Shown: positions 13,466 to 34,101 of the stretch, in pieces
Layout of the letters: the number at the start of each line of letters is the position of its first letter
Position numbering within the stretch: the stretch's first letter is position 1
NCBI GenBank assembly: GCA_001880285.1
Contig: CP016269.1
Coordinates: 310,001-374,000, forward strand
Direction: 5' to 3'
DNA length: 64,000 bases
DNA from: Flavobacteriaceae bacterium UJ101
GTDB lineage: Bacteria > Bacteroidota > Bacteroidia > Flavobacteriales > UJ101
The notes under the pieces: generated by a model
What the model saw: only the letters and a program-made list of their open reading frames with translations
Told to the model about the DNA's origin: nothing
Database searches by the model: none
Position numbers and translations under genes: made by a program

Positions 13466-13469
13466 CTAT

Positions 13470-15574: not shown

Positions 15575-17610
15575 TTTAATTTATAAATAGTAATTATTTT
15601 ATTTTCAAAAACTTTGCTCAAATGTACATTATCTTCTTCGATACTATTTAAGTTTGGATTACTTTTCTTATTATTCACAAGAAATTTAATATTATTTTTA
15701 AGCATAATAGATTCTATATTCAATCTATTAAAAATCGAATCATTTTTTTTCATGTTATGGTAAACTTCCTCTTTAAAGGAAAAATATTGCTTTTTTTCTC
15801 CATCCCTCTCAATTATATCTAATTTTCTTGGCGTATAAAAGTAACCTTCAATAAATGCTTGTCGACCTGAAAAAGCTGTATAATAAAAGAATCTACCTTT
15901 TTTATCTCCTAAAATAGGCTCATTATTTAAATTTAAATAATGTCGATTAGTTGCAAAAATATCCTTCTTTTCAGAATTATTTTTCAACCACTCTAAAGCT
16001 TGTTTTTCTTCCAACGTAATAACTCCTCTATCTTCTATAGCATAAGTAATATTTGCATACCCATAATTATTAATAATATCTAATACTATTTGCTTTGTAA
16101 ATAACATAACCGCTAAAAAAAACACTCCATAGACCAGCAAAAAAGATCCTTTCGTTTTATATTCATATAACTTCTTAAAACATAATATTGATAGTATATT
16201 AATGAACAGTAAAGACCCAAACATAAAGTAAAAATGAGAACTCCCTTCATGATAAAGAATATACATCAAAACAATACCTGAAAAAGCTATTCCATACATA
16301 TATAATTCAAAGATAGTAGATTTAGTAAAATTTTTAACAAACAATCCTACACTAATTAATAAAAGTATTCCTTGAAAAGGAATAAACATAAAAAAATGAA
16401 ACGGTATTAATAAAAAAGAAAAATTTTCATTTAGTCCTACTAAACCTAAGATCTTCTTACCAAAAGGAAAACTTGTGTTAATAGTATCCATTACAAACAC
16501 CTCTACTGAAGATATACTATCAACACCCAAAATAATATAATGACAAGAAACATAAACAAATAAAGTTAATACAAATAACTTTAAGATATATAAATCTATA
16601 TGCTTTTTTAGAAATGTATTCACAAATAACACACAAAATAATATAACAGGAATCAATAAAGCAAAAACACTTTTAAATCCTGTAAGTATAAATACCCCAA
16701 TTAACAATAACGTTACTTGTATAGTTGTGTATTTTTTATTTTTCAGAAAATCAATCACCAAAAGATTGACTATTATAAATATACAAAAAGATGGTAATAT
16801 AGCATTTGGGTTTTTAAAAATATGATACTCAAAATAATTTAAAGTAACTGATGCTGAAACAGAAGAAACAAATAATGTACTTAGTATAAAAAAAACTATA
16901 TATTTTTCTTCTTTCTTAAAAAAATATTGACCTATGCTATACATACTAAAACTTAGTATACTCAAATAAATAGGTATTATATAATAAAAACTAATATCAA
17001 CTACAGATACTCCTGTAGTTTTATTTAATATACTCACTATCCAATCATCAAAAAAATGATATTTAAAGGGTAAGCCTTTTACATGTATATCTGGAGGAAA
17101 AAAATTTATATCAAAGGCATATGAATTTCCTGCATGCCAGAACTTATCTGAAGTAAAGTAGTCGAAAATTTTAACCTTCTCTAAAGAAGGAGTTCCCATA
17201 ACATATAATGAAAATATAAAAATTATAAAAATTAATATGTAACCTAAATACCTTCTTTCATAAGCAACTTTTAATGGATTCTTATTTTTAAGAAAAAAAT
17301 TCAATATGCTTACTATTAAAGGTATAATTAATAAAATATAAATATTGTTTATTTTTATTGTTACAAAATCTACTAAAAAAACAAAAAATAATCCTAAAAT
17401 ATTAGAAATCAATATATTAGAAAATGGTATATTTGAAAAATCAACTTTAGTCAACCTATAAAAAAATAAGCCTGGTAAAAAAATATATCCTACATATCCT
17501 ATTAAAACTTTTAAAAAATTCAAAATTGATACTTCTGAATAATAATAACTCATAAAAAGTACCAGAATAGATATTAAACCTAAAAATATTTCTTTTTTAT
17601 TTATATTCAT
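15571..17610 (-). CDS. large membrane protein, GT-C glycosyltransferase-like
   Basis: 679 residues: about 12-13 transmembrane helices (residues 1-520) followed by a soluble C-terminal domain of about 150 residues. The loop FPPDIHVKGLPFKYHFFDDW (about 172-191) resembles the acidic/His-Tyr loop seen in GT-C proteins. The C-terminal stretch with ALEWLKNNSEKKDIFATNRH is typical of large archaeal and bacterial membrane glycosyltransferase-like proteins. It probably uses a polyprenyl-phosphate sugar as donor in the periplasm. It overlaps the smaller GT-C-like gene downstream by 4 bases and the oxidoreductase gene upstream by 14, so the four genes 14393-20037 form one transcription unit. Donor and acceptor are not known. 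Confidence 0.6.
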   Translation of the reverse strand: MNINKKEIFLGLISILVLFMSYYYSEVSILNFLKVLIGYVGYIFLPGLFFYRLTKVDFSNIPFSNILISNILGLFFVFLVDFVTIKINNIYILLIIPLIVSILNFFLKNKNPLKVAYERRYLGYILIFIIFIFSLYVMGTPSLEKVKIFDYFTSDKFWHAGNSYAFDINFFPPDIHVKGLPFKYHFFDDWIVSILNKTTGVSVVDISFYYIIPIYLSILSFSMYSIGQYFFKKEEKYIVFFILSTLFVSSVSASVTLNYFEYHIFKNPNAILPSFCIFIIVNLLVIDFLKNKKYTTIQVTLLLIGVFILTGFKSVFALLIPVILFCVLFVNTFLKKHIDLYILKLFVLTLFVYVSCHYIILGVDSISSVEVFVMDTINTSFPFGKKILGLVGLNENFSFLLIPFHFFMFIPFQGILLLISVGLFVKNFTKSTIFELYMYGIAFSGIVLMYILYHEGSSHFYFMFGSLLFINILSILCFKKLYEYKTKGSFLLVYGVFFLAVMLFTKQIVLDIINNYGYANITYAIEDRGVITLEEKQALEWLKNNSEKKDIFATNRHYLNLNNEPILGDKKGRFFYYTAFSGRQAFIEGYFYTPRKLDIIERDGEKKQYFSFKEEVYHNMKKNDSIFNRLNIESIMLKNNIKFLVNNKKSNPNLNSIEEDNVHLSKVFENKIITIYKLK

Positions 17611-18598
17611 TTTTAATACAATTATTTTTCTCTTTTATATTTTCGCCTATGGTTCTTACCTCTTCAATCAATTTTGCTTGAACTAAAATATTATTCCATT
17701 CTTTTTCAAAATTATTTTCTTTAACTATTGTAGTAAAATGATTAATCATATTTTTGAAATGATCATCTTCTTTTAATTGAATTTCCTTTTTATCTCCTTG
17801 TTTTTCAATTATAATCGTTGGTTTAAAATCCTTTTTAGCAGTATAAGCCCTCGTTGTTGTTAGTTTTCCCTTACTTCCCCATATTTCATATCCACATTGA
17901 TAAAAGTTATCAAACCCAAAGGATACCTCAGAAAAAATATCCTTTTCTTTATGGACCAAAAAAGCACCTCCAAACCAATCTACATTAAATTGGTCATTTT
18001 TCTTTAAAAAAGAGGATTTTACTTGAAAACTGTCCCCCATCATAAATGTGGTAGCTTTTAACGTATATGCTCCTGCATCAAGTAATGCTCCTCCTCCCAA
18101 ATCTTTATTATACCTAATATTTGTTTTTTCAGGAAATGGAGGAAATCCAAAATAGGCCCTAAATGCTCTTATAGCTCCTATTTCATCATTCTTTAACAGA
18201 TCAAATACAAACTGATGTTGAGAATGGTGCTGAAATTGAAAATTTTCAACTACAGCAATATTATTTTCTTTTGCACACTTTACTACATTTTCTGCTTCTG
18301 AAAATGTCATAACTGCAGATTTTTCTACCAGTACATGCTTTCTATTTTTAATAGCTTTCATAATCCATTCATAATGTAACCCTGTAGGTAATGGAATATA
18401 AACAGCTTCAATAGATTCATCATTTAGAATCGCATCATATGTTTCTGCATATTTACATTGAAATTTCTCAGCTACTTCTTTTGCTTTACTAATATTTCTA
18501 CTACTAACTGTAATACTATTATTATCAGATGCTCTTAATATTGCTGGAATAACGGAATTTACCGCTATATTTGCACAACTTATTATACCCCAGTTCAT
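17597..18598 (-). CDS. Gfo/Idh/MocA oxidoreductase, probable sugar 3-ketoreductase
   Basis: 333-residue NAD(P)-dependent oxidoreductase. It has an N-terminal Rossmann domain (NWGIISCANIAVNSVIPAI; VYIPLPTGLHYEW), the EK motif in HVLVEKSAVMT, and a C-terminal GFO_IDH_MocA domain with GGGALLDAGAYTL. Homologues next to NDP-hexose 2,3-dehydratases (for example KijD10 and TylC1 types) reduce the 3-keto group left by the dehydratase, giving a dTDP-4-keto-2,6-dideoxyhexose. The gene is 8 bases downstream of such a dehydratase, so I assign the same role. The stereochemistry of the reduction cannot be read from sequence. Confidence 0.82.
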   Translation of the reverse strand: MNWGIISCANIAVNSVIPAILRASDNNSITVSSRNISKAKEVAEKFQCKYAETYDAILNDESIEAVYIPLPTGLHYEWIMKAIKNRKHVLVEKSAVMTFSEAENVVKCAKENNIAVVENFQFQHHSQHQFVFDLLKNDEIGAIRAFRAYFGFPPFPEKTNIRYNKDLGGGALLDAGAYTLKATTFMMGDSFQVKSSFLKKNDQFNVDWFGGAFLVHKEKDIFSEVSFGFDNFYQCGYEIWGSKGKLTTTRAYTAKKDFKPTIIIEKQGDKKEIQLKEDDHFKNMINHFTTIVKENNFEKEWNNILVQAKLIEEVRTIGENIKEKNNCIKNEYK

Positions 18599-18606
18599 GT
18601 TTATAT

Positions 18607-20037
18607 TTATATATATGAAATTGCTGAAATTAAACTCCTTGCTTGAATATTTACAAAATTATTAAATTGAATGAATTTTTTTAACTGATTCAATGTCAGC
18701 CAATTATAATTACTCGGCACTTCCTCTGAAAAACTATCATTCACTTTAATAATCATATTTCTATTTTGTTCTTTATAAAAACGTCCTCCTTCTTCTGATT
18801 GATAGGTATCATAAAGAACTTCATCAGAGTTCGCATTTAAAATAGTACTTAAAAACGGAATTGTTTCCATATTTTTATTATTTACAGAACTGCATTGAAC
18901 AGTTGGTGCCATTTCAATAGTGTCCATAAAACCTGGTTCAACTCTCCCTTGTACTAAAAAGTGATAGATCCCTTTAATTTCTTTAACAATAAAAGCACAT
19001 ATTCCTTTATGCATAGGTTTTATTAAAGGCTGATCCCATGAAACGACTTCTCTATTTCCTATTTCCACCGTAACACCTATAACTTCAAAATAGTCATTAT
19101 TAATCTGAGAAATTGTTTTTTCGCCTATTTCCCAGTCAGTTATATCAAAAACTGATTTAATACTTGTGTGAAGTTCATATTTTGATTTTAAATCTGTCAA
19201 CCAATGTATTATTTCTTGAAAAGGTCGTTTTGAAACATTATGAACTAACAATGACTTAAGAAAATGATTTCCAATAGATGATTGGTTACCTTTTATTATA
19301 TTAAAGAAATTATATGTATCTAATTTATAATCACCATATAAAAGTCCTGATATAACCGTTCGGGTATCCATATTTATAATATTATCAAAACTCATAAGGT
19401 ATTTAATTTGTCCTAATGTCAGCCATCTAAAATCTTGCTTAAGCTCTATATCTTCTTCAACATTAATAATAATATTTCGATTTCTTTTTCTAAAGAAACG
19501 TGCTCCTTGTTCTGATTGTAATTGATCTAAAATTACATTTTCTGGTTTTACATTGATAAAATATTCTAAATAATTAGGAAATCTTCCACCATGTACTTTT
19601 GTATAATTACTTTTCGTTGCTTGAACAGTAGGTGATAATTGTACACAATTTACATTGCCTGGTTCTATTTTAGCTTGTACCAAAAAATAAAGTACACCTT
19701 CTATTTCCTTTGTAATAAAACCTAAATAACCTATTTCTGGTTGATTGATAATAGGTTGTTCCCAATTTAGTAGTTCTTGATTTTGATATTTTATATCTAC
19801 TTGTAATCCTTTTATAGAAAAAAATTTGTTAGAAGAATGCTTTAAAGCACCTTCTTCTTTTGAAAATGACCAATTTCTTAGTTTATTAAATTCAATTTGA
19901 TTAACCTGTACTTTTACCTCTTCATTTCGTTCTTTAACCCAATTTAAAATTTCTTCATTTCCATAAAAAGGGTTTTCTAACAATAAAGATGATTTTAAAA
20001 TTTTATAATAAAGATTATTTATACTATGATTATTCAT
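18607..20037 (-). CDS. NDP-hexose 2,3-dehydratase
   Basis: 476-residue protein of the NDP-hexose 2,3-dehydratase family (EvaA, TylX3, SpnO type), which removes the 2-OH of dTDP-4-keto-6-deoxyglucose. The family has two similar halves, and both are visible: GYLGFITKEIEGVLYFLVQAKIEPG paired with GICAFIVKEIKGIYHFLVQGRVEPG-type blocks, then QLSPTVQ with EMAPTVQ, then LQSEQGARFFRKRNRN with YQSEEGGRFYKEQNRN. Its partner ketoreductase follows at once. This chemistry is best known from glycosylated antibiotics; here it sits in a surface-glycan locus. It is preceded by a 51-base AT-rich spacer after the GT4 gene, without a convincing promoter. Confidence 0.9.
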   Translation of the reverse strand: MNNHSINNLYYKILKSSLLLENPFYGNEEILNWVKERNEEVKVQVNQIEFNKLRNWSFSKEEGALKHSSNKFFSIKGLQVDIKYQNQELLNWEQPIINQPEIGYLGFITKEIEGVLYFLVQAKIEPGNVNCVQLSPTVQATKSNYTKVHGGRFPNYLEYFINVKPENVILDQLQSEQGARFFRKRNRNIIINVEEDIELKQDFRWLTLGQIKYLMSFDNIINMDTRTVISGLLYGDYKLDTYNFFNIIKGNQSSIGNHFLKSLLVHNVSKRPFQEIIHWLTDLKSKYELHTSIKSVFDITDWEIGEKTISQINNDYFEVIGVTVEIGNREVVSWDQPLIKPMHKGICAFIVKEIKGIYHFLVQGRVEPGFMDTIEMAPTVQCSSVNNKNMETIPFLSTILNANSDEVLYDTYQSEEGGRFYKEQNRNMIIKVNDSFSEEVPSNYNWLTLNQLKKFIQFNNFVNIQARSLISAISYI

Positions 20038-21183: not shown

Positions 21184-22337
21184 TATTCTTCTTGTAAATC
21201 TTTAAAAATGGTATCCCATTTAGGCATAATAATGTCTTGAGAAAATCGTTTCACATTTTCTTTAGCCTTTTGTCCCATCTGCTTACGCAAATTATCATCT
21301 TCCATTACTTTTCTTAATTTCAATGATAAATCATAAGCATCTTGAGGATTCGCTAACAAACCATCTTCTCCATCTTGAATAATTTCTGAGGGGCCACAAG
21401 GACAATCAAAAGAAACCAATGCTAAACCATGCCAAGCAGCTTCAGTTAAAACTAATCCGAAACCTTCATAACGAGATGATAAAGCATATATTGAACTTGT
21501 TAAGTATTCTTCTTTTAACTTAAGAGTTGGAGGTAATATTTTAACTTGTTCTTTTAAATCAAATTTTTCAACAATCGGATCTAAATAATCTGTTTTAGAT
21601 CTTCTACCAATAATTTTTAATTTCCAATCCGGAAAATCATCTTTTAAATAGGACCATGCTTCTATTAAGTATTCAAATGCTTTAATAAAATTGGTTTTCC
21701 CTACAGCAATAACCGTTTTTTGTTTATAATTATCATTAGTTTCTATCTCCTCTGAAACAGTAAGTGGATTATAAACATATTCTGCATTATTTAAATTCCA
21801 TGATTTTAAATCTCTTTTCGTTGAAAAAATAGCTCTATCATATTTTGAAAAAACTTTATGATATCTTTTCAATTCAAAATTTTCAAAAAAGAATTTAGTT
21901 AATTTAGGAAATTTGGCAGTTTCAGTCTGAATCAAAATTCCTTCTCTAGAAAAATGATATTCTACAATCTTTTTACTTTGATCTTTAATTTTATATACTA
22001 TATCATGATCAAAATTAAAAAGTGAAATTGCAAAATCTACTTTTAATTCATTTAATAAATTAGTAGCTTTTTCTAAATACTCTTTTTTTAATTCTTTAAT
22101 TTTTAACCTTTTTTTTAAAAAATTAGATTGTTTTGCTATCTCCTCTAAATGAATATCTAAATTAAAAACTTTTATTTTATCATTCAACGGAAAAAAAGGA
22201 GTACTATTCTCTTTATCTGTAGTTATAATATAAACTTCATATTTCTTTACTTTAGCAAAATAGTTTGCTTTTAAAGATAAAATACGTTCCATACCTCCTG
22301 GTGTAGACAAGCGATCAATAAAATATACTATTTTCAT
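21183..22337 (-). CDS. GT4-family glycosyltransferase, tandem copy 2
   Basis: 384-residue GT4 enzyme, paralogous to the downstream neighbour. It begins MKIVYFIDRLSTPGGMERIL and its donor-binding region reads SSRYEGFGLVLTEAAWHGL, then CPCGPSEIIQDGEDG. It is about 20 residues longer in the acceptor domain than its paralogue, where acceptor specificity is set, so the two probably recognise different acceptors. It overlaps the GT2 gene upstream by one base, consistent with coupled translation. Confidence 0.92.
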   Translation of the reverse strand: MKIVYFIDRLSTPGGMERILSLKANYFAKVKKYEVYIITTDKENSTPFFPLNDKIKVFNLDIHLEEIAKQSNFLKKRLKIKELKKEYLEKATNLLNELKVDFAISLFNFDHDIVYKIKDQSKKIVEYHFSREGILIQTETAKFPKLTKFFFENFELKRYHKVFSKYDRAIFSTKRDLKSWNLNNAEYVYNPLTVSEEIETNDNYKQKTVIAVGKTNFIKAFEYLIEAWSYLKDDFPDWKLKIIGRRSKTDYLDPIVEKFDLKEQVKILPPTLKLKEEYLTSSIYALSSRYEGFGLVLTEAAWHGLALVSFDCPCGPSEIIQDGEDGLLANPQDAYDLSLKLRKVMEDDNLRKQMGQKAKENVKRFSQDIIMPKWDTIFKDLQEE

Positions 22338-23209
22338 TATATCTTATATTTATGGTAAATAAATTTCATATCTGATAGAATAGCTTTTCTTTGTTTATAT
22401 AAATTTTTTATAATAAACCATAAATAACCACTCGTTATTGACTGTGTAAAAGATAAATTATCATACCTTTTTTTCATCATTTTAAATTCCCAATCTGTAT
22501 AATATTTAGTATTAGGAAATTTTTCTTTTCTTCTTTTAATTGCCTTTTCTATTACTAAAAAGCTACTTTCAGCTGCTTTTTTAACATCACTAGACAAAGA
22601 ATTTTTATGACTTCTCCTATAATAATATAATGGTATATCTAAACAAATTGGTTTTCCTAGCTCTTCTAACTTAAAATATAAATCTGTATCTTCTCCAGCT
22701 GTAACATTTTCAATTTTATCGATTTGAGAATATAATTCTTTTCTAAATAAAACTAGGGGTGTTATACCAGGACAAGTCATATGACTTTCACCTTCGGGAA
22801 TAGGTTTTGGATAACTTGATAATTTCCAATTTTCTAGATTTTCATCACATAAATAAAAAGGCGAATGAACTATAGATGCTTCAGGAAATTCTAAATGTTT
22901 ATTATATAATAGTTGCAATGCATATTGAGAAATAGCATCATCAGAATCTAAAAACGTAACATACTCCCCCTTTGCTTCTTTTAAAAGTCTATCTCTAGTA
23001 AAGGCAATTCCTTCATTCTTATCATTAACAGAATATCGAATTCTTTTATCTTTGACTAACAAATTATTAATTATATCAACACTATTATCCGTTGAACAGT
23101 CATCAACTATATATATTTCAAAATCTTGATAAGTCTGAACTAAAATACTATTAATACATTCTTCAATGTATCTTCCATTATTATAATTTGCTATTAAAAC
23201 TGAAATCAT
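22337..23209 (-). CDS. GT2-family glycosyltransferase
   Basis: 290-residue inverting GT-A enzyme. The N-terminus MISVLIANYNNGRYIEECIN, the nucleotide-binding IVDDCSTDNS and the DxD-like metal site in FLDSDDAI are canonical GT2 features; EDTDLYFKL carries the catalytic-base ED motif. There are no membrane helices, so it is a cytoplasmic enzyme adding one sugar to the lipid-linked repeat. It overlaps the GT42-like gene upstream by 4 bases and the GT4 gene downstream by 1. Confidence 0.93.
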   Translation of the reverse strand: MISVLIANYNNGRYIEECINSILVQTYQDFEIYIVDDCSTDNSVDIINNLLVKDKRIRYSVNDKNEGIAFTRDRLLKEAKGEYVTFLDSDDAISQYALQLLYNKHLEFPEASIVHSPFYLCDENLENWKLSSYPKPIPEGESHMTCPGITPLVLFRKELYSQIDKIENVTAGEDTDLYFKLEELGKPICLDIPLYYYRRSHKNSLSSDVKKAAESSFLVIEKAIKRRKEKFPNTKYYTDWEFKMMKKRYDNLSFTQSITSGYLWFIIKNLYKQRKAILSDMKFIYHKYKI

Positions 23210-24177
23210 AAATTTTCTTTTTCAAAATAATAGGGTAAATCTGGATATAATTTTGCTTTTTTGGATCCTATAAATAATTGTATTCCTTTTGGTTTCAATA
23301 TTAAATCATTAAATTCTTTAATATATTCATCTCCTGGTACGAACCCTCCTTTATAATTTTTAGGATCTGCATTACCATGGTTCTTATCTTTTTTATCATT
23401 AGGAACAAAATCTCTCAAATATTGAATATTAGCTACCTTATCATATTCAGAAATTTCATAGAAATAACGACTATTATTCATATCCAATCCTAAACAAATT
23501 ATTTCTTTATATCCTTCTAAGTAACAAAAGTTTAAAATTTTATTAATCGATCCTAAATGATGTATTAATGTTTCATTATTTAGTGGAAAAATTTTACTTT
23601 TTTCGCGAAACTTAATTAGATCAAATAATATTCTTTTATTAGGGATTGAATGGAAATAAGGTACTTGACAATAATAGTCTTTTAAATATTCAAAATTAGA
23701 AAATTCTTCCTTATCAAGTATATGTGCTTTAATATTTAAATAACTAAAAATCTGTGGTATATTTTGATAAATCGCATCATTTTTCCAATTCTTATATGCA
23801 ATTTCTCTAATTTCCTTCATTTTTGCAAATTCTAAAAAAGCAATTGTTGGTTTAAAATTTTTGTTCATAAAAGATTGGTTAAGGCATATAATATCATGTT
23901 TATTAATATGCTTCCACTGTTCTTCTGATATATCATTTATCGAGGTTCCTGATCCTACTATAAAAACGGTATCAGATTTCTTATACTTCGAATAATCTAA
24001 AGTTTTTATGTTCGGCCATTCTGAATTATTTAATTCTTTCCTAGCAAAATACGATGGTATATCTCTTTTAAGGAAGTATAGAGTATCTTTATAAGAAAAA
24101 GATTCTTTTCTATACTTAATTTTTATAAATACATATAATGGGACACAAATTATGTTATAAAGTATATTTTTTATCAT
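23206..24177 (-). CDS. GT42/MAF_flag10-like putative nonulosonate transferase
   Basis: 323 residues, with an amphipathic/hydrophobic N-terminus (about 5-20). VFIVGSGTSINDI (about 71-83) followed by IICLNQSF parallels the nucleotide-binding start of Campylobacter Cst sialyltransferases (GNGPSL...RCNQ). Further on, LGSINKILNFCYLEGYKEII and LGLDMNNSRYFY match the layout of the Cst GYKEI-SGIDFY region, and NHGNADPKN could supply the late catalytic histidine. MAF/DUF115 proteins, which attach pseudaminic acid to flagellin, share this fold. As the gene is part of a pseudaminic-acid locus, I infer a pseudaminic-acid transferase. I see the pattern similarity directly; the function is inferred. Confidence 0.6.
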   Translation of the reverse strand: MIKNILYNIICVPLYVFIKIKYRKESFSYKDTLYFLKRDIPSYFARKELNNSEWPNIKTLDYSKYKKSDTVFIVGSGTSINDISEEQWKHINKHDIICLNQSFMNKNFKPTIAFLEFAKMKEIREIAYKNWKNDAIYQNIPQIFSYLNIKAHILDKEEFSNFEYLKDYYCQVPYFHSIPNKRILFDLIKFREKSKIFPLNNETLIHHLGSINKILNFCYLEGYKEIICLGLDMNNSRYFYEISEYDKVANIQYLRDFVPNDKKDKNHGNADPKNYKGGFVPGDEYIKEFNDLILKPKGIQLFIGSKKAKLYPDLPYYFEKENL

Positions 24178-25574
24178 TTCTGTTTTTTAATAAAGTTCAA
24201 AAGTAAAATAAATAGCAATAACAGTATCAAAATATAAATAGAAATTTTAATCATTATATTCTGATTAACAATAAAAAAAGCTACTAGTGTCATAAAAATA
24301 GTAATCAATAAAGATTCAACAGGTCTATAATTTACTTTTGAAAAATTTTTAAATTCTTTCAGTAAAAAACCTCTGTAGCTTAAATAAGTAACCCCTATAA
24401 AATAACCTACAGCTACTCCATAAATACCATAGATTGGTGTTACAATCAGATATATCAGTACTGTTAAAATTCCTCCTATAAAAGAAACTTTCCATAATTC
24501 TTTTGTCTTTTCTGTAAAAAATAAAACGGAGGTCGAAGCCATATACATAGGTTTATGATTAACAATCATAACAAGTATTATAACTAGATAATAGGAATCT
24601 TTTAATGTTTGATTTCTCATCAAAAAATCAACAAGTTCTTTTGAAAATATAGCTATTCCAAAAGTACCCGCAAAAACTAAAATTTGTACTATTCTTATTA
24701 AATATAATACTCTAATTTCATTCTTTTCCCTGTATTCTTTCATTATAATAGGACTCAATGCCTTATTAATTGCAAAAGAGGACAAATCTGCATAGCTATA
24801 TAATTTTTCTGCAAAATTATATTTTCCTATTAAACCTATATTAACGTTATAACGATCCATTATTATTTTATTGGAAGACCCTATTAAAAAACTTCCATAA
24901 CTATGAAAAACAGTAGGTAGTGAAATTTTTAAATATTGAATTATCAATCTTCTTTTAAAATTAAATATAGGTTTAATTCCTAATTTCATTAATGGATACC
25001 AACATGAAAAATTCCAGAATAATGTTCCTATAAAGGTGGCGTAAAACCATCCCATATATCCCATTTTATAAAACCGAATAAATACTACATTAAAAAAAAT
25101 TGTTATTAAAGAAGTTAATATTGTTCTTATTGTTATTGGTAAAGGTTTTTCTTCTAATTGATAGTAAAATAATGCCATATTTGAAACAGGACCAAAAAAT
25201 AACACTGGAAAAATTAATAAGAAAAGAATTAAGTATTTGTTATCTCCAACTTCATCAGGCATCAAAACATACAAAATAACAAACTGCAAAAAGGCATATA
25301 CAATCGTCCACAAAATTAAAAACCCATAAATTTGACGCCAAATCATGATATATCTATCAGGATGTTTAACATATGTATTGACCAATATTACACCAAAACC
25401 TAGTATAGAAAAAGCTCCTAAAAATGCTGAATAAGACATTATAGTTCCATGTATACCATAATCAACATCAGTTAAAAACTCTGTTATAAAGGGTAGCACA
25501 AAAAAACCAATGACTTTTGGTATTTGTGGTCCTAAACCGTATATAAATGAATTTAAAAAAAGTCTTTTTAGCAT
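24174..25574 (-). CDS. oligosaccharide flippase (Wzx-like)
   Basis: 466-residue polytopic protein with about 14 helices, of the polysaccharide-synthesis/MATE-like (MOP) superfamily. The start LKRLFLNSFIYGLGPQIPKVIGFFVLPF is typical of RfbX/Wzx proteins, and the helix pattern ends with a basic tail. It should flip the undecaprenyl-diphosphate-linked repeat unit to the periplasm, where the Wzy candidate (8642-9910) would polymerise it. It overlaps the GT42-like gene by 4 bases and lies 27 bases downstream of the PIG-L gene. Confidence 0.9.
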   Translation of the reverse strand: MLKRLFLNSFIYGLGPQIPKVIGFFVLPFITEFLTDVDYGIHGTIMSYSAFLGAFSILGFGVILVNTYVKHPDRYIMIWRQIYGFLILWTIVYAFLQFVILYVLMPDEVGDNKYLILFLLIFPVLFFGPVSNMALFYYQLEEKPLPITIRTILTSLITIFFNVVFIRFYKMGYMGWFYATFIGTLFWNFSCWYPLMKLGIKPIFNFKRRLIIQYLKISLPTVFHSYGSFLIGSSNKIIMDRYNVNIGLIGKYNFAEKLYSYADLSSFAINKALSPIIMKEYREKNEIRVLYLIRIVQILVFAGTFGIAIFSKELVDFLMRNQTLKDSYYLVIILVMIVNHKPMYMASTSVLFFTEKTKELWKVSFIGGILTVLIYLIVTPIYGIYGVAVGYFIGVTYLSYRGFLLKEFKNFSKVNYRPVESLLITIFMTLVAFFIVNQNIMIKISIYILILLLLFILLLNFIKKQK

Positions 25575-25601: not shown

Positions 25602-26306
25602 TTATATAATACTACGTACAATACAAAATGCTTCAGCATAATTTTTCCCAACAATAATTCCTCGTTGTTGAGCTAATATTTTAAGAGCTTCTGGTGATCT
25701 TGGATGTGGAAAAGATCTTTTTTCAAACTCATAAGCTTCCATACCTTTAATTTTTGCCTCAACATCTTGCTTACTAACCTCTATAAACAAATTTGGAATA
25801 AATTTTCTTGGTTCAGATGAAGCTATCCATTCTGTTCCTGATGGTGTCTCAAAAGTAATAATTGTATGAACTTTTTCATGACTCATGGGTCTTGTTGCTG
25901 TAACTACAGCTTCAAAAGTTCTTTGATGATCGATATTAACATCCCCTCCATGATGGGTGAAAATAATTTCAGGATTAAATTCTTCCTTTTCTTTTTCTAT
26001 AACCTTTATAATATCCAATAAATCTACTGAGTCAAATCGATTATCTGGAAAATCATAAATACCTACTGACTCATATCCTATCGATTTTCTAGCTTCTTCA
26101 ATATTTTGGCGATGGATTGTTAATTCTTCTTGCCATTTTTCTTGATCTCTTATGTCAGAGCGTGATGTGATACCTTCTCCTAAAATAATTGCTCTAATAA
26201 CACAATTATGCTCATGAATCAATTTATGCATAGTTGCTCCTAACCCCAACAATTCATCATCAGGATGAGCTACAACTACTAATATTTTCTTATTTTCAAA
26301 AATCAT
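25602..26306 (-). CDS. PIG-L/LmbE family N-deacetylase
   Basis: 234-residue zinc-dependent deacetylase of the PIG-L family. The metal-binding AHPDDE is at residues 13-18 and the second HxxDxxxDH-type block, HGGDVNIDH, at about 119-127. Known members remove N-acetyl groups from sugars such as GlcNAc-PI, GlcNAc-Ins and bacillithiol precursors. The gene overlaps pseI by 11 bases, so it should act in the pseudaminic-acid pathway, perhaps exposing an amine that the nearby formyltransferase (27323-28018) then formylates. A role on another sugar in the glycan is possible. Confidence 0.85.
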   Translation of the reverse strand: MIFENKKILVVVAHPDDELLGLGATMHKLIHEHNCVIRAIILGEGITSRSDIRDQEKWQEELTIHRQNIEEARKSIGYESVGIYDFPDNRFDSVDLLDIIKVIEKEKEEFNPEIIFTHHGGDVNIDHQRTFEAVVTATRPMSHEKVHTIITFETPSGTEWIASSEPRKFIPNLFIEVSKQDVEAKIKGMEAYEFEKRSFPHPRSPEALKILAQQRGIIVGKNYAEAFCIVRSII

Positions 26307-27330
26307 AATCTATATCCTCTTTTTGTAATCGATCTCCCAAAAAAAGATCTTTTTTCACTTTTTTACCTATAATAACTTCTAAATATTTAGGTGGTAATCC
26401 AAACCCTGGGCGTACAGATCGAACATTATCATGGCTAATATAATCACCTTTTGAAATATTTTTAGAAACATATAAAGATCTTGAAAATCTTTTTCCAGAA
26501 ATTTGTTTAGATGTTAAGTCATAAGTGACTTTCCCCAGTGCTGATTCAGCTTGCCTTACTTTTTCAACCATATCTGTAAATTCTTTTTCATCCATTGAAA
26601 AAGAAGCATCTGGGCCACCTATTTCCTTATTTAAAATAAAATGCTTTTCTATTACTCTAGCCCCCATAGCTACTGACAATACAGGTATTAAACTTCCTAA
26701 TGTATGGTCTGATAGACCTACTTTCACGTTAAAATCTTTACCAAATTGTTTTATCATCATTAAATTAGCTTCTTCAATAGGAGCAGGATAAGATGAAGTA
26801 CATTTTAATAAAGTTATATCTGTACATCCCTCTTCTCTACATGTTTCTACTGCTAATTTTATATCATTATAATCGGCAATTCCTGTTGATATTATCACAG
26901 GTTTTCCTTTAGAAGCAACATATTTCAATAAAGGTATATCGGTTATTTCAAAAGAAGCAATTTTATAAATAGGACAATCTAAATCTTCTAAAAAATCAAC
27001 AGCAGTTAAATCAAAAGGGGTTGAAAAACAAATTAACCCTTCTCGTTTTGCTTCATCAAATAATTCTTTATGCCATTCCCATGGCAAACTAGCTTCTTCA
27101 TATAATTCATATAAATTCTTCCCATCCCATATTGTTCCTCCTTGTACAATAAAATCATCTTTTGAAGAATTAAGTGTCATAGTATCTGGAGTATAAGTTT
27201 GCATCTTTATTGCATCTGCTCCAGCTCTCTTCGCAGCTCTAATTGTTTCTTTAGCAATATTAATATCACCTCCATGATTAGCTGACAATTCTGCTATTAT
27301 AAATACTTTATCAGACATATTTTTATTCAT
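26296..27330 (-). CDS. pseI: pseudaminic acid synthase
   Basis: 344-residue enzyme of the NeuB family. It condenses 2,4-diacetamido-2,4,6-trideoxy-L-altrose with phosphoenolpyruvate to give pseudaminic acid. The N-terminal TIM barrel (AELSANHGGDINIAKETI; IKMQTYTPDTMTL; CFSTPFDLTAVDFL) is followed by the C-terminal antifreeze-like SAF domain (about 285-344) with VRPGFGLPPKYL, the PseI-type version. QTYTPDTMT and the SAF signature favour PseI over NeuB or LegI. It overlaps its neighbours on both sides (8 and 11 bases). Confidence 0.93.
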   Translation of the reverse strand: MNKNMSDKVFIIAELSANHGGDINIAKETIRAAKRAGADAIKMQTYTPDTMTLNSSKDDFIVQGGTIWDGKNLYELYEEASLPWEWHKELFDEAKREGLICFSTPFDLTAVDFLEDLDCPIYKIASFEITDIPLLKYVASKGKPVIISTGIADYNDIKLAVETCREEGCTDITLLKCTSSYPAPIEEANLMMIKQFGKDFNVKVGLSDHTLGSLIPVLSVAMGARVIEKHFILNKEIGGPDASFSMDEKEFTDMVEKVRQAESALGKVTYDLTSKQISGKRFSRSLYVSKNISKGDYISHDNVRSVRPGFGLPPKYLEVIIGKKVKKDLFLGDRLQKEDIDYDF

Positions 27331-28018
27331 TCTCTTTTTTTTGATTAATTATTATTTTTGCATCTGCAATAATTGTTTGGTCTGCTTTTAAAGAAGCTCT
27401 AGTAAATTCTATTTTAAAATTATCTGTTTTAATATAAGCTTTAGGATACCCTTCTGCATCTAACATTCTTATATAATCATATATTCTCTCTATATCTGAA
27501 AATGATGTTATATCGCTCTGATTTGCCACTCTCCTTTTAAACTCTACAATTTTTCCTTTCTGCTCAATAGGATTCAAATCTTTTTCAATGATTTCTTTAA
27601 TCATTGTTTTAATTAAATTATTAGATCGATAAAAGATTTCTTCAGCAGTACCATAAAGTGATAAATCTTTTTTTAAATAGATTGGTCCTCCATCTAATTC
27701 TTTAACAACTTTTAGTGCTGATATTTTTGTTTCTTTAAATCCTCTATCTATTAAGTTTTGCAATGGACTCCCTCCTCTTCCAAATGGTAAATCAGTCATA
27801 TGGAATACAACACATTCAAAATTAGCAAAAATTTCCTCAGGAATTATATAAGACCAATGAGGAATGAAAATTTTATCTATTCTACTATCTACTAAGTTTT
27901 TATATGTAAAATCTTTCTTTTCACGAATAAAGACCCATTCTATGTTATCAGAAGATAGTTCTTCTACTAAACTTTTATTCCACTTTTTCTCAGATAGTAT
28001 AGCAAACTTTCTTTTCAT
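27323..28018 (-). CDS. formyltransferase-family protein (sugar N-formyltransferase candidate)
   Basis: 231 residues related to methionyl-tRNA formyltransferase (PF00551 fold). VVFHMTDLPFGRGGSPLQNL (about 70-89) holds the catalytic histidine (His73) and the P-x-x-RGG loop; ELDGGPIY (about 107-114) holds the catalytic aspartate. It is far shorter than tRNA formyltransferase and lacks its C-terminal tRNA domain. It lies between pseH and pseI, so I infer formylation of an amine on the pseudaminic-acid precursor or product with N10-formyl-tetrahydrofolate. The Asn normally two residues before the catalytic His appears replaced by Val71, which is worth checking. Confidence 0.75.
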   Translation of the reverse strand: MKRKFAILSEKKWNKSLVEELSSDNIEWVFIREKKDFTYKNLVDSRIDKIFIPHWSYIIPEEIFANFECVVFHMTDLPFGRGGSPLQNLIDRGFKETKISALKVVKELDGGPIYLKKDLSLYGTAEEIFYRSNNLIKTMIKEIIEKDLNPIEQKGKIVEFKRRVANQSDITSFSDIERIYDYIRMLDAEGYPKAYIKTDNFKIEFTRASLKADQTIIADAKIIINQKKENE

Positions 28019-28053: not shown

Positions 28054-28557
28054 TTATATTTTTAATAAAAGTTCATAATTATTTGAATTTTCTTTTACAA
28101 CCTTAAAATTAAATTGATAATGAAGAGTCAATGACTTTACATTATCCTTTAAAACTTCTGCTTTTATTTTTTTTAATCCTAATTCTTCAAAAAATAACTT
28201 TAATGTTGCTGTTAACATTTTTTTTCCATAACCCATTCCCATTAATTCTGGATTTAAAAAAAAACCCCAAAAAGCTTCCTTACTTTCTAAATCATATTTG
28301 TTAATATAAACAGCTCCAATAATCTGATCTTTTTTATTTACTGTCCAATAAAAATTTTTATCATTTTTACTTAATTTTTCAATAAAATCAAAATGGTCTC
28401 TTTCACTGATAATATCAGAATTTGTCATCATATTTCTAACTGATATATCATTTCTCATTTTCAATACCTCCCTCTTTTCTTCTATTGAAAGTTTAAAATA
28501 ATTTTTAAATGTAAAATCTTCAATTATATAATCTTTATCTCTATCAATTAATAACAT
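28054..28557 (-). CDS. pseH: UDP-4-amino-4,6-dideoxy-N-acetyl-L-altrosamine N-acetyltransferase (PseH-type GNAT)
   Basis: 167-residue single-domain GNAT acetyltransferase. MRNDISVRNMMTNSDII is the characteristic PseH-like start of the core, and the acetyl-CoA loop is in PELMGMGYGKKMLTATL. PseH acetylates the 4-amino group made by PseC, giving the diacetylated sugar used by PseG. Position between pseG (13 bases) and the formyltransferase (35 bases) supports this. The acyl group could differ from acetyl. Length fits the family. Confidence 0.85.
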   Translation of the reverse strand: MLLIDRDKDYIIEDFTFKNYFKLSIEEKREVLKMRNDISVRNMMTNSDIISERDHFDFIEKLSKNDKNFYWTVNKKDQIIGAVYINKYDLESKEAFWGFFLNPELMGMGYGKKMLTATLKLFFEELGLKKIKAEVLKDNVKSLTLHYQFNFKVVKENSNNYELLLKI

Positions 28558-28570
28558 ATAAAATTTTATA

Positions 28571-29563
28571 TTAAGTATTACTAATTTCTACAAAATGTTT
28601 TTTATGGTTTTCTTTACTTTTTTGTATTTTTTCCATAAAGCTTTTATCCAAATCTTTTCTTAAGCATTCATCCAAATCGATCTTTAATCGATCTTTATCT
28701 AAAATATTTAAATCACCATAACCATTCACATACCCATTATCATTTAAATATTTAAACATATACTCTTGATTATCAATATAATAACCAGATACCACATTAA
28801 TTCCTAAAGCTAGTGCTTCTATACACATTGAACTAGAAGGCAATATACCCGAACAAGCTCTTTTCATCAAATCACTTACTTCTTTAGAGCTTAATTTGCT
28901 ATATAATTGAATATTTTCATATTTTCTCGCAAATTCTTCTACATCAAAATATTTCTCATTTTGATCATTTAATATTATATTGATTTTATATGACAAATGA
29001 TATTTTAAATCAATAGTCATCTTAACATATTCATATGTTAGATTATTAAAATCTGTACCTCCAAAAGCTATTAAAATTTCCTTTTTTTTATCCATTTGTT
29101 CAATTAATAAAAAATCTTTTCTTAGTAAAGCATTTTCTAATCCTAAAAAAAGCTTTGTATAACTTTCTTTTGAATAAGACTTATAAGATGTAATATCAAT
29201 CTGGTTAATAATTGCATCTGCTACAAAATGTCGATCAGCAAGGTCATCAATACAAACTAATTTGCAACCAGATTTTTTAATTTTTTGTTGGTAATCTGTT
29301 GAAAAAAAATAATTATCGAGAACTACAATTTCATCTCCCTCTAACATAGTAAGAAATTGATTAAAATGAGTTTCATCTTCTTCAAGTTTTATCCTTTTAT
29401 GGCAAATCTTATTAATTTCTTCTTCAATAAAAGAATTCAAAAAACGTGTAACGAAAACACATTCAAAATCATTCCTTAATGATTCTGCTAAAGCCAACAA
29501 ACGTATAACATGTCCATATCCTATATCTTGACTCGCATCAGCACGAAATAAAATTTTTTTCAT
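28571..29563 (-). CDS. pseG: UDP-2,4-diacetamido-2,4,6-trideoxy-beta-L-altropyranose hydrolase
   Basis: 330-residue GT-B-fold hydrolase that removes UDP in the pseudaminic-acid pathway. The N-terminus carries FRADASQDIGYGHVIRLLAL, with the catalytic GxGH-type histidine. VCIDDLADRHFVADAIINQ and the C-terminal GILPSSSMCIEALALGI are the PseG/SpsG signatures. It has no fused acetyltransferase domain; a separate PseH follows. It lies 4 bases downstream of the cytidylyltransferase gene. Confidence 0.92.
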   Translation of the reverse strand: MKKILFRADASQDIGYGHVIRLLALAESLRNDFECVFVTRFLNSFIEEEINKICHKRIKLEEDETHFNQFLTMLEGDEIVVLDNYFFSTDYQQKIKKSGCKLVCIDDLADRHFVADAIINQIDITSYKSYSKESYTKLFLGLENALLRKDFLLIEQMDKKKEILIAFGGTDFNNLTYEYVKMTIDLKYHLSYKINIILNDQNEKYFDVEEFARKYENIQLYSKLSSKEVSDLMKRACSGILPSSSMCIEALALGINVVSGYYIDNQEYMFKYLNDNGYVNGYGDLNILDKDRLKIDLDECLRKDLDKSFMEKIQKSKENHKKHFVEISNT

Positions 29564-29567
29564 CCGA

Positions 29568-30323
29568 TCAAACCTTTTTTTGAATTATTTCTTTATTTAT
29601 TTCAAAAATCCAATGTTCTCTTTCATATAACATAACAATATCATCTAAATTGAACGCTATATTAGGTTGAAAATACTTGAATAAAGCACATTGTGTTAGA
29701 TAATCTTCTTTAGTATCAACTGTTAATCTCAATTTATCTAAACCAGAATAATGAAAATCCTTAAAAAAATTCAATTTATAATGATTTGGATTATTTTTAA
29801 AAAATAGAGTAACGTGTTCCTTTTCTTCTAAAGTCAACTTATCTTCTTGTAAGTTTTCAAAGCAATAACCTGAAATAACCTCTATATTCATTCCTAGAGG
29901 ATAACTAATAGAATAAGTATAATCTGCTTTCTTTTCAATATGATCATTAATTACTTTATCGATTAATTCGTGATGAACACACGGATTGTCTGCTGTTAAG
30001 CGAACAATATAATCATATTTAAATTTTGATTGTACAGCAACAAACCTACTTAAAACATCATTTTCATCTCCTCTAAAAAGAGATATATTATTTTTAGTTT
30101 TTATATGGTTTTCTAACTGATCATCTTTTTTATTTATGGATGTTACTACTTCAATAGCATTAATATATTTTGATGCACCTATCCTATCAATAATAACATC
30201 AATTATTGTAGTCTTAGATGAATAAGGTAATTTTTTCAATATTTTACCTGGAAGCCTAGTAGAGCCCATCCTAGCTTGAATAACAGCGGCTATTTTATAT
30301 TTATGTTGTTGTCCATCCTCCAT
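29568..30323 (-). CDS. SpsF-like cytidylyltransferase (probable CMP-pseudaminic acid synthetase)
   Basis: 251-residue nucleotidyltransferase. The signature AAVIQARMGSTRLPGKILKK (about 12-31) is that of the SpsF branch of acylneuraminate cytidylyltransferases, not of classic PseF or NeuA. RLTADNPCVHHELID contains the DxP metal site. By position it should activate pseudaminic acid with CTP, giving the CMP-sugar for the transferase. Its start overlaps the end of the SDR gene by 23 bases. No second CMP-sugar synthetase occurs in the window, so this one is the only candidate here. Confidence 0.82.
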   Translation of the reverse strand: MEDGQQHKYKIAAVIQARMGSTRLPGKILKKLPYSSKTTIIDVIIDRIGASKYINAIEVVTSINKKDDQLENHIKTKNNISLFRGDENDVLSRFVAVQSKFKYDYIVRLTADNPCVHHELIDKVINDHIEKKADYTYSISYPLGMNIEVISGYCFENLQEDKLTLEEKEHVTLFFKNNPNHYKLNFFKDFHYSGLDKLRLTVDTKEDYLTQCALFKYFQPNIAFNLDDIVMLYEREHWIFEINKEIIQKKV

Positions 30324-31074: not shown

Positions 31075-31080
31075 TACTAT

Positions 31081-31947
31081 CTATTTTAAAATCCAATTAG
31101 AAGGATTTATATATTTCTCATCATCTATAGAAAACTTTTCAAAATCTATATTCTTAAGGATTTCCAGATCAATTTTATTTAATTCTTCAACATTTTCCTT
31201 TAATTGATCCAGACTATTAACACCAATTACCAGTTTATCTACAAAACTATTTTTAATGATAAAGTATAGCGCTAAAAGAGTAGGTGAAACTCCATAATCA
31301 TTAGCTGTTCGATGAAAGTCAACTATTTTTTCTTTTACAGGTGAAAAAAAAGGAGGAATATCATCCTCATTCATAAAAATTAATCCTTGAGAAAAAACAG
31401 ACCTAACATGAACCTCAATATTCTTTTTATTTAAAATTTCTAAATAAGGAATGAATTTCTGATTAAAAATATTTATTGGAATTTGAATTAAATCAAATTT
31501 AACATTATCATTTAATAGAGTTAATAAATCATCTACTGAGTACAATGAGAACCCTATTTTTTGGACTAATCCTTCATTTTTCAAGCTCATCATTTCATCA
31601 AAACTCTGAGTATCATTTAAATATATACTAAAATTATGAAATAAATAGCCATAAATCATTCTTTGCTTTAATCTGTCAATAGAATCTTTAAATTCTTTAT
31701 CAACTCCTTTACTTCCTGAATATTTAGTTATAATTTTATAATCATTTGAAATAGGAATATTACCTATGACCTGTTCACTATCTCCATATGCATATGCAGT
31801 ATCTAAGGTATTAATACCAACTTCTTTAGCAAATGTTAAAATATCATTTACTTCATTAGCATTTGTCTTGCCATGAGTATTACTTATACCATAATTTATT
31901 CCAAATTGAACAGTTCCTAATGCTATTTTATCATTATAACAACTCAT
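31081..31947 (-). CDS. aldo/keto reductase inside the pse operon
   Basis: 288-residue member of the aldo/keto reductase superfamily. The N-terminus ALGTVQFGINYGISN, the catalytic region INTLDTAYAYGDSE (with Asp and Tyr) and the C-terminal LVIGVNSLDQLKEN for NADPH binding are visible. Like the SDR next to it (6 bases), it is additional to the standard pseudaminic-acid pathway and overlaps pseC by 14 bases. It may reduce a keto intermediate or alter a side chain of the nonulosonic acid. Its substrate is not predictable. Confidence 0.85.
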   Translation of the reverse strand: MSCYNDKIALGTVQFGINYGISNTHGKTNANEVNDILTFAKEVGINTLDTAYAYGDSEQVIGNIPISNDYKIITKYSGSKGVDKEFKDSIDRLKQRMIYGYLFHNFSIYLNDTQSFDEMMSLKNEGLVQKIGFSLYSVDDLLTLLNDNVKFDLIQIPINIFNQKFIPYLEILNKKNIEVHVRSVFSQGLIFMNEDDIPPFFSPVKEKIVDFHRTANDYGVSPTLLALYFIIKNSFVDKLVIGVNSLDQLKENVEELNKIDLEILKNIDFEKFSIDDEKYINPSNWILK

Positions 31948-33088
31948 AAAAACTTAATACTCTATCAATTACATAGTTCTGTTCTTCATCAGTTAAAGAT
32001 GGATACATAGGTAAACTAATACATCTTTCATAATATTTTTCTGAATTAGATAAATCTGCTCCATCATAGCCTATTGCTTTATAATAAGGCAGAGTATGAA
32101 CTGGAATATAGTGTATTTGAGCATATATGTTATTTTCTTTCAAATAATCATACATTTTTTTTCTATCATCTACTTCAATAACAAATAAATGATGTGCATT
32201 ATACATTCCTTCAGGTAAAGATTGATACTTTATTTTCCCTTCAAATGCTTTCTTATATACTTGTGCTATTTCGTTTCGTTTCTTGACACCACTTTCATTC
32301 TTAAAAAGCTGACTAATTCCTAATGCTGATTGAAAGTCTGTTAAACGGTAATTATATCCTAATGTTTTCATTTCATAATACCATCCTCCATGGTTTTCTT
32401 CCATATTTTCTTTTGTAATACCATGGGTACGAAGCAACAATAATTTTTCATATAAACTTTTAGAGTTTGTTGTGATCATTCCTCCTTCTCCACAAGCTAT
32501 ATGTTTAACTGGATGAAAAGAAAAAATACTTAAATCAGCATATTGACCATTCCCACACATTTGTTTTTCTCCCTTAGAATCCAAAAAATAACCTCCAGGA
32601 GCATGGCATGCATCTTCAATAACCCATAAGTCATGCTCATTGGCTAATTCTTTAAATGCCTCTAAATTTACTGGTAATCCTCCAAAATCAACAGGGATTA
32701 TCCCTTTAAAAAAACCTTTAGGTTTACTTTCAATAAGTTTTCTTACTGATTCTATATCTAATATATAAGTTTCTGGATTAATATCAGCAAACCAAACTTC
32801 TCCTTCTACATATCGAATACAATTTGCACTTGCTGCAAAAGTTATAGGAGTTGTAATAACTCTATCCCCTTTCTCTAATCCTAATGCTAAAACAGACAAA
32901 TGTAACCCGGCTGTTGCATTATTAACAGAGACAGCATATTCTGCTCCAACATATTTAGCAAACTTATCTTCAAACTCCTTGACCTTAGGCCCTTGCGTTA
33001 AATAATCAGCCTGTAGAGTTTCAATTACAGCTTTTATATCATCTTCTTCTATTGATTGACGACCGTATGGAATTGCTTTTTCTATCAT
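31934..33088 (-). CDS. pseC: UDP-4-amino-4,6-dideoxy-N-acetyl-beta-L-altrosamine transaminase
   Basis: 384-residue PLP-dependent aminotransferase, second step of the pseudaminic-acid pathway. AIPYGRQSIEEDDIKAVIE, SVNNATAGLHLS, ITTPITFAASANCI and the PLP-lysine block SIFSFHPVKHIACGEGG (Lys195) match PseC. Length is normal. It overlaps pseB by 4 bases and the aldo/keto reductase gene by 14, as expected for a coupled operon. Confusion with other DegT-family aminotransferases is unlikely because pseB precedes it directly. Confidence 0.94.
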   Translation of the reverse strand: MIEKAIPYGRQSIEEDDIKAVIETLQADYLTQGPKVKEFEDKFAKYVGAEYAVSVNNATAGLHLSVLALGLEKGDRVITTPITFAASANCIRYVEGEVWFADINPETYILDIESVRKLIESKPKGFFKGIIPVDFGGLPVNLEAFKELANEHDLWVIEDACHAPGGYFLDSKGEKQMCGNGQYADLSIFSFHPVKHIACGEGGMITTNSKSLYEKLLLLRTHGITKENMEENHGGWYYEMKTLGYNYRLTDFQSALGISQLFKNESGVKKRNEIAQVYKKAFEGKIKYQSLPEGMYNAHHLFVIEVDDRKKMYDYLKENNIYAQIHYIPVHTLPYYKAIGYDGADLSNSEKYYERCISLPMYPSLTDEEQNYVIDRVLSFYELL

Positions 33089-34101
33089 AACACTTCAAAA
33101 TTTGAGTCTACATGTTCTTTTATCAAACTTCTCAATCCTTCTACCGTCTCCCATTCTTCATTATTTCCTGAATTATATATAAATCCGATAGGAACTTGTT
33201 TAGCATTAAACTCTTTAATAAAATCTTTTAAATCCCAATTAGCCACTGTTGGCAAAATAGTATAATATTTTCCTAAATCATAAGTATAAAATGAGTCTGA
33301 ACTAGCAATCATTTCTTCATGTAATTTCTCTCCAGGTCTAATTCCTACAACTCTATGCTCAATATTAGGTGCAATCGCTTTTGCCACATCTGTTATTTTA
33401 TATGAAGGGATTTTAGGTATAAAAATCTCTCCTCCCCAAGCATGTTCTAAAGCGTGTAAAACCATATCTACACCACCATCCAAAGAGATATTAAATCGGG
33501 TCATTTCTAAATCTGTTATCGGTAAAAACCCTTCTTCTCTCTTTTTTATAAAAAATGGTATTACGGAACCATTTGATCCCATAACATTTCCATAGCGTAC
33601 TACTGAAAATCTGATATCATTCCACCCTTTTATATTATTAGCTGCTACGAATAATTTATCTGAAGTCAATTTGGTTGCACCATATAAATTAATAGGTGCG
33701 CATGCTTTATCGGTTGATAAGGCCACCACTCGTTCTACATTTGTTTCTAAACAAGCATGTATTACGTTTTCGGCTCCATTAACATTAGTTTTAATACATT
33801 CTGATGGGTTATATTCTGCTAAATGAACGTGCTTCATTGCTGCTGCATGAATCACATAATCAATATCTTTCATTGCTCTTACCAAACGTTCTTTATCTCT
33901 TACATCTCCAATAAAGAAACGAATAGCAGGATATTTATCTAAAGGAAATTCTTGAGCCATTACGAATTGTTTCTGCTCATCTCTTGAAAAAATCACCAAT
34001 CTTTTTACTTCAGGATATTCTGAAAATATTCTTCTTGTTAAGGCTTTCCCTAATGATCCTGTTCCACCTGTAATTAAAATAGATTTATTATTTAGACTCA
34101 T
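33085..34101 (-). CDS. pseB: UDP-N-acetylglucosamine 4,6-dehydratase (inverting)
   Basis: 338-residue extended SDR, first enzyme of the pseudaminic-acid pathway. It converts UDP-GlcNAc to the 4-keto-6-deoxy L-arabino sugar. Seen are ITGGTGSLGKAL (residues 10-21), the catalytic ALSTDKACAPINLYGATK with TDK at 130-132 and Tyr140/Lys144, RYGNVMGSNGSVIPFF, and GEKLHEEMI near the C-terminus. It is the soluble single-domain form without membrane helices, as expected of PseB rather than of PglF/WbpM. It is preceded by a 38-base spacer after the dehydrogenase gene. Confidence 0.95.
   Translation of the reverse strand: MSLNNKSILITGGTGSLGKALTRRIFSEYPEVKRLVIFSRDEQKQFVMAQEFPLDKYPAIRFFIGDVRDKERLVRAMKDIDYVIHAAAMKHVHLAEYNPSECIKTNVNGAENVIHACLETNVERVVALSTDKACAPINLYGATKLTSDKLFVAANNIKGWNDIRFSVVRYGNVMGSNGSVIPFFIKKREEGFLPITDLEMTRFNISLDGGVDMVLHALEHAWGGEIFIPKIPSYKITDVAKAIAPNIEHRVVGIRPGEKLHEEMIASSDSFYTYDLGKYYTILPTVANWDLKDFIKEFNAKQVPIGFIYNSGNNEEWETVEGLRSLIKEHVDSNFEVL

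Follow-up and report, generated by a model that had tools for sequence, protein, structure and literature searches.

The window analyzed here is a 64,000-nucleotide stretch with a G+C content of 29%, from a Bacteroidota genome that consists of one 3.07-Mb contig. The gene of interest encodes a 323-residue protein, P0001, and lies on the minus strand in a run of genes that includes those for the synthesis of pseudaminic acid (Pse), a sialic acid-like sugar of bacteria, with wzx upstream and a GT2 gene downstream (see the table). Its ORF is exactly the one that an earlier inspection of the letters without database searches, the sequence-only reading, had delimited; the plus strand is crowded with stops there.

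Table. Genes and predicted functional residues at the P0001 locus (window positions).
Feature	Position	Strand	Evidence
P0001, predicted CMP-nonulosonate (CMP-Pse) transferase, 323 aa	23206..24177	minus	ORF, fold, profile, and context
GSGTSIN codons (residues 75-81), predicted nucleotide-binding loop	23935..23955	minus	G75, G77, S79, and N81 invariant
N100, Asn of CLNQ	23878..23880	minus	invariant, 13/13
S210, aligned to Cst-II Ser132	23548..23550	minus	HMMER profile alignment to 1ro7; S/T in 13/13
GYKEIICLGLDMNNSRY, residues 222-238	23464..23514	minus	aligned with Cst-II GYKEIYLSGIDF...Y; G230, D232, and Y238 invariant
H267, candidate general base (Cst-II His188 equivalent)	23377..23379	minus	profile column on His188
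GT2 glycosyltransferase	22337..23209	minus	PF00535, E 7.5e-33; 4-bp overlap with P0001
Wzx-type flippase	24174..25574	minus	PF01943, 47.4 bits; 4-bp overlap with P0001
PIG-L family deacetylase	25602..26306	minus	PF02585, 76.9 bits
PseI, pseudaminic acid synthase	26296..27330	minus	TIGR03586, 511 bits (cut-off 340)
Formyltransferase-like protein	27323..28018	minus	PF21553, 96.9 bits
PseH N-acetyltransferase	28054..28557	minus	TIGR03585, 119 bits (cut-off 93)
PseG	28571..29563	minus	TIGR03590, 178 bits (cut-off 154)
CMP-sugar synthetase, PseF role (donor-making)	29568..30323	minus	PF02348, 92.6 bits
PseC aminotransferase	31934..33088	minus	TIGR03588, 453 bits (cut-off 424)
PseB dehydratase	33085..34101	minus	TIGR03589, 512 bits (cut-off 408)

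The sequence-only reading had placed P0001 in a Pse locus next to Wzx, and profile searches bear this out: PseB, PseC, PseG, PseH, and PseI all exceed their NCBIfam cut-offs, and the flippase is recognized by PF01943. The CMP-sugar synthetase of the locus had no match to the NCBIfam PseF model; its PF02348 match spans window positions 29586-30290 (G000 339586-340290). PseI is flanked by the PIG-L deacetylase and the formyltransferase-like gene. A PIG-L/formyltransferase pair likewise sits beside NeuB in locus L036 (4326-5267 and 5264-5935), and a formyltransferase lies beside PseI in locus L014. This placement suggests that the nonulosonic acid, or its precursor, is first N-deacetylated and then N-formylated. 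Between the CMP-sugar synthetase and PseC are an SDR gene and an aldo-keto reductase-like gene (window 30301-31947), and a 28% identical homologue of the latter is found in the L014 Pse locus (12657-13568). On the other side of P0001, an NDP-hexose 2,3-dehydratase gene (PF03559, 487 bits) adjoins a Gfo/Idh oxidoreductase gene (window 17597-20037); the two probably represent a deoxysugar branch of the same polysaccharide locus.

Relatives of P0001 are rare and divergent. A scan of genome contigs with the single sequence returned no relative, and a scan with a four-sequence alignment returned seven. Relatives occur in 4 of the 196 genomes nearest the window, its own included, and in 7 of 395 genomes of the phylum; they are scattered over Bacteroidota, Rhodospirillales, Gallionellaceae, Sulfitobacter, a Woesearchaeota archaeon, and two contigs of a viral collection (L015 and L016), on both of which the relative has GT2-like genes close by. 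None was found in the phage and plasmid records searched. On a phylogenetic tree, the 13-member family is split from the PF01973 proteins above cut-off with 100/100 support and a long branch, and the joins within it are weak and poorly resolved. Three proteins that the search only just reached (L040, L041, and L034 4188-4976) are themselves PF01973 proteins above the cut-off, and when one PF01973 protein was compared with the family by profile, no more than 32 columns matched. L034 holds two proteins of this fold superfamily, the PF01973 protein just named and a member of the P0001 family; in its polysaccharide cluster, a GAPDH-like enzyme adjoins a cytidylyltransferase (7761-10485).

All of the motifs that had been picked out by eye are present: GSGTSI at residues 75-80, CLNQ at 98-101, GYKEI at 222-226, GLDMNNSRYFYE at 230-241, and a late histidine, H267. 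Eight residues (G75, G77, S79, N81, N100, G230, D232, and Y238) are invariant in the 13-sequence alignment, in which the other members are only 19-31% identical to P0001; the motifs therefore exceed what chance would produce. The late histidine is present in nine of the 13 sequences and missing from four.

We then compared these positions with those of the Campylobacter sialyltransferase Cst-II. The GSGTSIN segment corresponds to the first Rossmann loop of Cst-II, with the structural alignment starting at model residue 69, opposite Cst-II residue 2. From this start and the Cst-II sequence, N100 is the presumed equivalent of Asn31. The profile alignment sets GYKEI on GYKEI, D232 on Asp154, and Y238 on Tyr162, and it puts Asn234 in the column of Tyr156. 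Tyr156 and Tyr162 are the two phosphate-binding tyrosines of Cst-II. By the structural register, the place of Asn51 is presumably taken by Glu116. Two active-site residues of Cst-II thus appear, from these alignments, to be replaced in P0001: Asn51 by Glu and Tyr156 by Asn. The column of H267 falls on His188, the residue that acts as general base in Cst-II (PMC4202792).

Curated family profiles leave P0001 without a home. The sequence-only reading had named PF06002 (GT42) and PF01973 (Maf/MptE) as the models to search. PF06002 matched neither P0001 up to an E value of 10 nor its relatives up to 1, and across 296 genomes of the phylum it had one match, below threshold. PF01973, the sole Pfam match of P0001, scored 13.2 bits, well below its cut-off of 34.6 bits; several relatives also score below threshold with this model. 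By curated cut-offs, P0001 is therefore outside both families, which fits the suggestion of a divergent, possibly new family and not that of a GT42 member. PHROGs had no match to P0001. PF05159 (KpsC/KpsS) was found neither in P0001 nor, by profile, anywhere in the genome, which by the same approach has no PF01973 gene above cut-off and no flagellin gene. An NCBIfam CbiT match to P0001 (E 0.0013), far under its cut-off, was treated as chance, and a phmmer search of the PDB with P0001 alone gave only HST2 deacetylases (E 0.1) and was uninformative.

The 13-sequence profile was more telling. Among 177,635 PDB sequences, it matched only chains of Cst-I and Cst-II, with E values from 4e-5 to 9e-5. 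When the three most divergent relatives were removed as a check for drift, Cst-II was still the top PDB match, at an E value of 0.04. Because of this latter value, the link to Cst is suggestive by sequence and becomes convincing only when it is combined with the fold.

The structure of P0001 was modeled from nine sequences (pLDDT 62.5, pTM 0.67). The core was modeled well; residues 240-272, which include H267, have a pLDDT under 50, and the hydrophobic N-terminal helix (residues 2-23) is a low-confidence part. The model aligned with a Pasteurella sialyltransferase (9c08; Z 10.9, rmsd 3.7, 178 residues), Maf (5mu5; Z 10.2, rmsd 4.5, 200 residues), Cst-I (Z 10.1, rmsd 4.7, 197 residues), and Cst-II (Z 9.8, rmsd 4.5, 190 residues). 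The top nine Foldseek matches were mammalian GT29 sialyltransferases, none of them below an E value of 0.001. Modeling succeeded better for a homologue found in a Rhodospirillales bin, L009 (pLDDT 76.1, pTM 0.82). This second model matched Cst-II (Z 11.9, rmsd 3.8, 190 residues), Maf (Z 11.7), and Cst-I (Z 11.5); further down its match list, unrelated folds begin at Z 3.8, after a drop from 8.0. Structure comparison had been chosen beforehand as the test that could overturn the proposed kinship, and the predicted fold proved not to be unrelated to GT42 and Maf, its best matches being sialyltransferases and Maf. A CMP-binding pocket, which the sequence-only reading also called for, is suggested by the conserved residues. 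The models thus place P0001 with the Cst-type modified Rossmann fold (a GT-A variant), which is also that of the central Maf domain. HPPK of Methanocaldococcus jannaschii, which belongs to the MptE branch of this superfamily, matched as well (Z 9.6 to P0001 and 11.2 to the homologue). Since this archaeal protein is no glycosyltransferase, the fold alone is no proof of glycosyltransferase activity.

Genomic context supplies a third line of evidence. We located the NeuB genes (PF03102, 12 genomes) and the CMP-sugar synthetase genes (PF02348, 14 genomes) around the relatives. Eleven of 14 relatives, each from a separate genome, lie within 5 kb of one or the other, compared with 3 of 126 GT4 genes (Fisher 1.8e-11); this control is conservative because the GT4 genes were taken from the eight of the 14 genomes that have NeuB near the relative. 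One relative (G554) is counted solely through a NeuB fragment. For two others (G110 and G557), the contig stretch that carries the relative has no donor genes, and for a third (G555) they are 12.8 kb away. Just upstream of the Sulfitobacter relative is a NeuB fragment, a 130-aa ORF (L011 6993-7842), which has the look of a NeuB gene disrupted by a frameshift or by decay.

The partner loci differ in the sugar that they make and have the CMP-nonulosonate pathway in common. The L014 relative sits in a Pse locus. Leg-type loci surround the L036 relative, with NeuC, NeuB, NeuD, and PtmE, and the L039 relative, with NeuC and NeuD. In L007 and L035, the relative is accompanied by a short NeuB and by a CMP synthetase fused to a Kdn-9-P-phosphatase-like domain. 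These short NeuB-like proteins (L007 5777-6652 and L035 7692-8582) are about 291-296 aa long and 69% identical to each other, and the domain fused to the cytidylyltransferase is an HAD phosphatase matching Kdn-9-phosphatase models; a Kdn-type pathway is possible. Since relatives are found in Pse, Leg, and Kdn-like loci, the family is general to nonulosonic acids. The shared context is what would be expected of a family of nonulosonic acid transferases, and it argues that the type of donor follows the locus. For P0001, it is solely its own locus that points to Pse.

Taken together, the fold, the profile match to Cst-I and Cst-II, and the locus support the proposal of a Pse transferase of the GT42/Maf type, first made in the sequence-only reading. 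The type holds for the fold; membership in either family does not, given scores below the curated cut-offs, and the family as a whole is not confined to Pse. We consider it likely that P0001 is an inverting CMP-Pse transferase that provides a surface glycan with its Pse, acting on a lipid-linked glycan before export by Wzx. Such an enzyme would be a single-domain, membrane-associated, inverting nonulosonic acid transferase. PseB, PseC, PseH, PseG, PseI, and the CMP synthetase would make a CMP-activated Pse derivative, possibly N-formylated, and the Cst/Maf-type Rossmann domain is predicted to bind it through the GSGTSIN loop, N100, S210, and Y238. H267 may then deprotonate the acceptor hydroxyl of a lipid-linked oligosaccharide made by the neighboring GT2/GT4 enzymes, and Wzx would flip the product afterwards. 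A lipid-linked acceptor is suggested by the lack of a flagellin gene, the lack of the domains that flank the Maf core, and the coupling to wzx and GT genes; the N-terminal helix would suit it.

Alternatively, P0001 might transfer another nonulosonic acid or some other CMP-sugar, leaving Pse to a different enzyme of the locus. The variety of loci around the relatives, which include Leg, Kdn-like, and undefined CMP-sugar loci, indicates that donor use varies in the family, and the two relatives without nearby donor genes must draw their donor from elsewhere. However, the only NeuB-family gene in the P0001 genome is PseI, 2.3 kb away, and PF02348 finds just one further gene there, a distant second copy that is probably KdsB; CMP-Pse and CMP-Kdo are therefore the only evident donors, and we regard a donor other than Pse as improbable. 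That P0001 is a true Maf, a protein O-glycosyltransferase placing Pse on flagellin or another protein, is very unlikely: the fold comparisons put Maf near the top, and CMP-nonulosonates are the donors of Maf enzymes (PMC11339370), but a genome without a flagellin gene by profile, a 323-aa protein without the extra N- and C-terminal domains, and a gene that overlaps both wzx and a GT2 gene all speak against it. Equally hard to credit is an MptE-like enzyme of the pterin diphosphokinase type, or a regulatory one, that shares the fold and is no glycosyltransferase, as the MptE-like PF01973 match and the HPPK fold match might have it, but the PDB profile matches are sialyltransferases only, linkage to CMP-nonulosonate genes is strong across separate genomes, and the family is separated from PF01973 proteins above cut-off on the tree.

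P0001 belongs to a small family, as yet without a name, whose predicted fold is that of known bacterial sialyltransferases and which falls under every curated family cut-off. The wider proposal seems to us evenly balanced: a separate glycosyltransferase family that adds nonulosonic acids (Pse, Leg, and Kdn-like) to lipid-linked polysaccharide units in Bacteroidota, Pseudomonadota, and archaea, with a donor site altered by Glu in place of Asn51 and a single phosphate-binding Tyr.

Among known systems, the GT42 enzymes Cst-I and Cst-II of Campylobacter resemble P0001 in fold (Z about 10-12), motif order, and single-domain build; N100, S210, GYKEI, and Y238 are kept, and the late His aligns with His188. 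Unlike GT42, P0001 has no PF06002 match, presumably carries E116 at the place of Asn51, has N234 in the Tyr156 column, and is expected to use Pse rather than Neu5Ac as the donor. The central domain of Maf (PF01973), the flagellin Pse transferase (PMC11339370), is similar in fold (Z 10.2-11.7) and in using a nonulosonic acid donor, whereas P0001 lacks the N- and C-terminal Maf domains, is encoded in a polysaccharide locus, and belongs to a clade separate from PF01973 proteins above the cut-off.

Few Pse transferases are known for glycans other than those of flagellin; in the literature searched, these were KpsS1 (PMC12887879) and GtfS (PMC6120980). KpsS1 (GT118), a retaining Pse transferase of the Acinetobacter baumannii capsule that is related to KpsC/KpsS (PMC12887879), shares with P0001 the proposed role of adding Pse to a polysaccharide but not the Cst/Maf-type fold, and the genome of P0001 has no PF05159 protein. 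GtfS of Tannerella forsythia, which adds Pse to the S-layer O-glycan (PMC6120980), is likewise from Bacteroidota and encoded in a cluster of pse genes, wzx, and GT genes; in contrast to the 323-aa P0001 with its Cst/Maf-type domain, it is a 445-aa enzyme of the GT-B type. If our interpretation is correct, a compact Cst/Maf-type enzyme tied to pathways for Pse, Leg, and Kdn-like sugars would stand beside KpsS1 and GtfS as a third solution, would allow the missing transferase to be annotated in many nonulosonate loci, and would be a candidate tool for making Pse and Leg glycans enzymatically.
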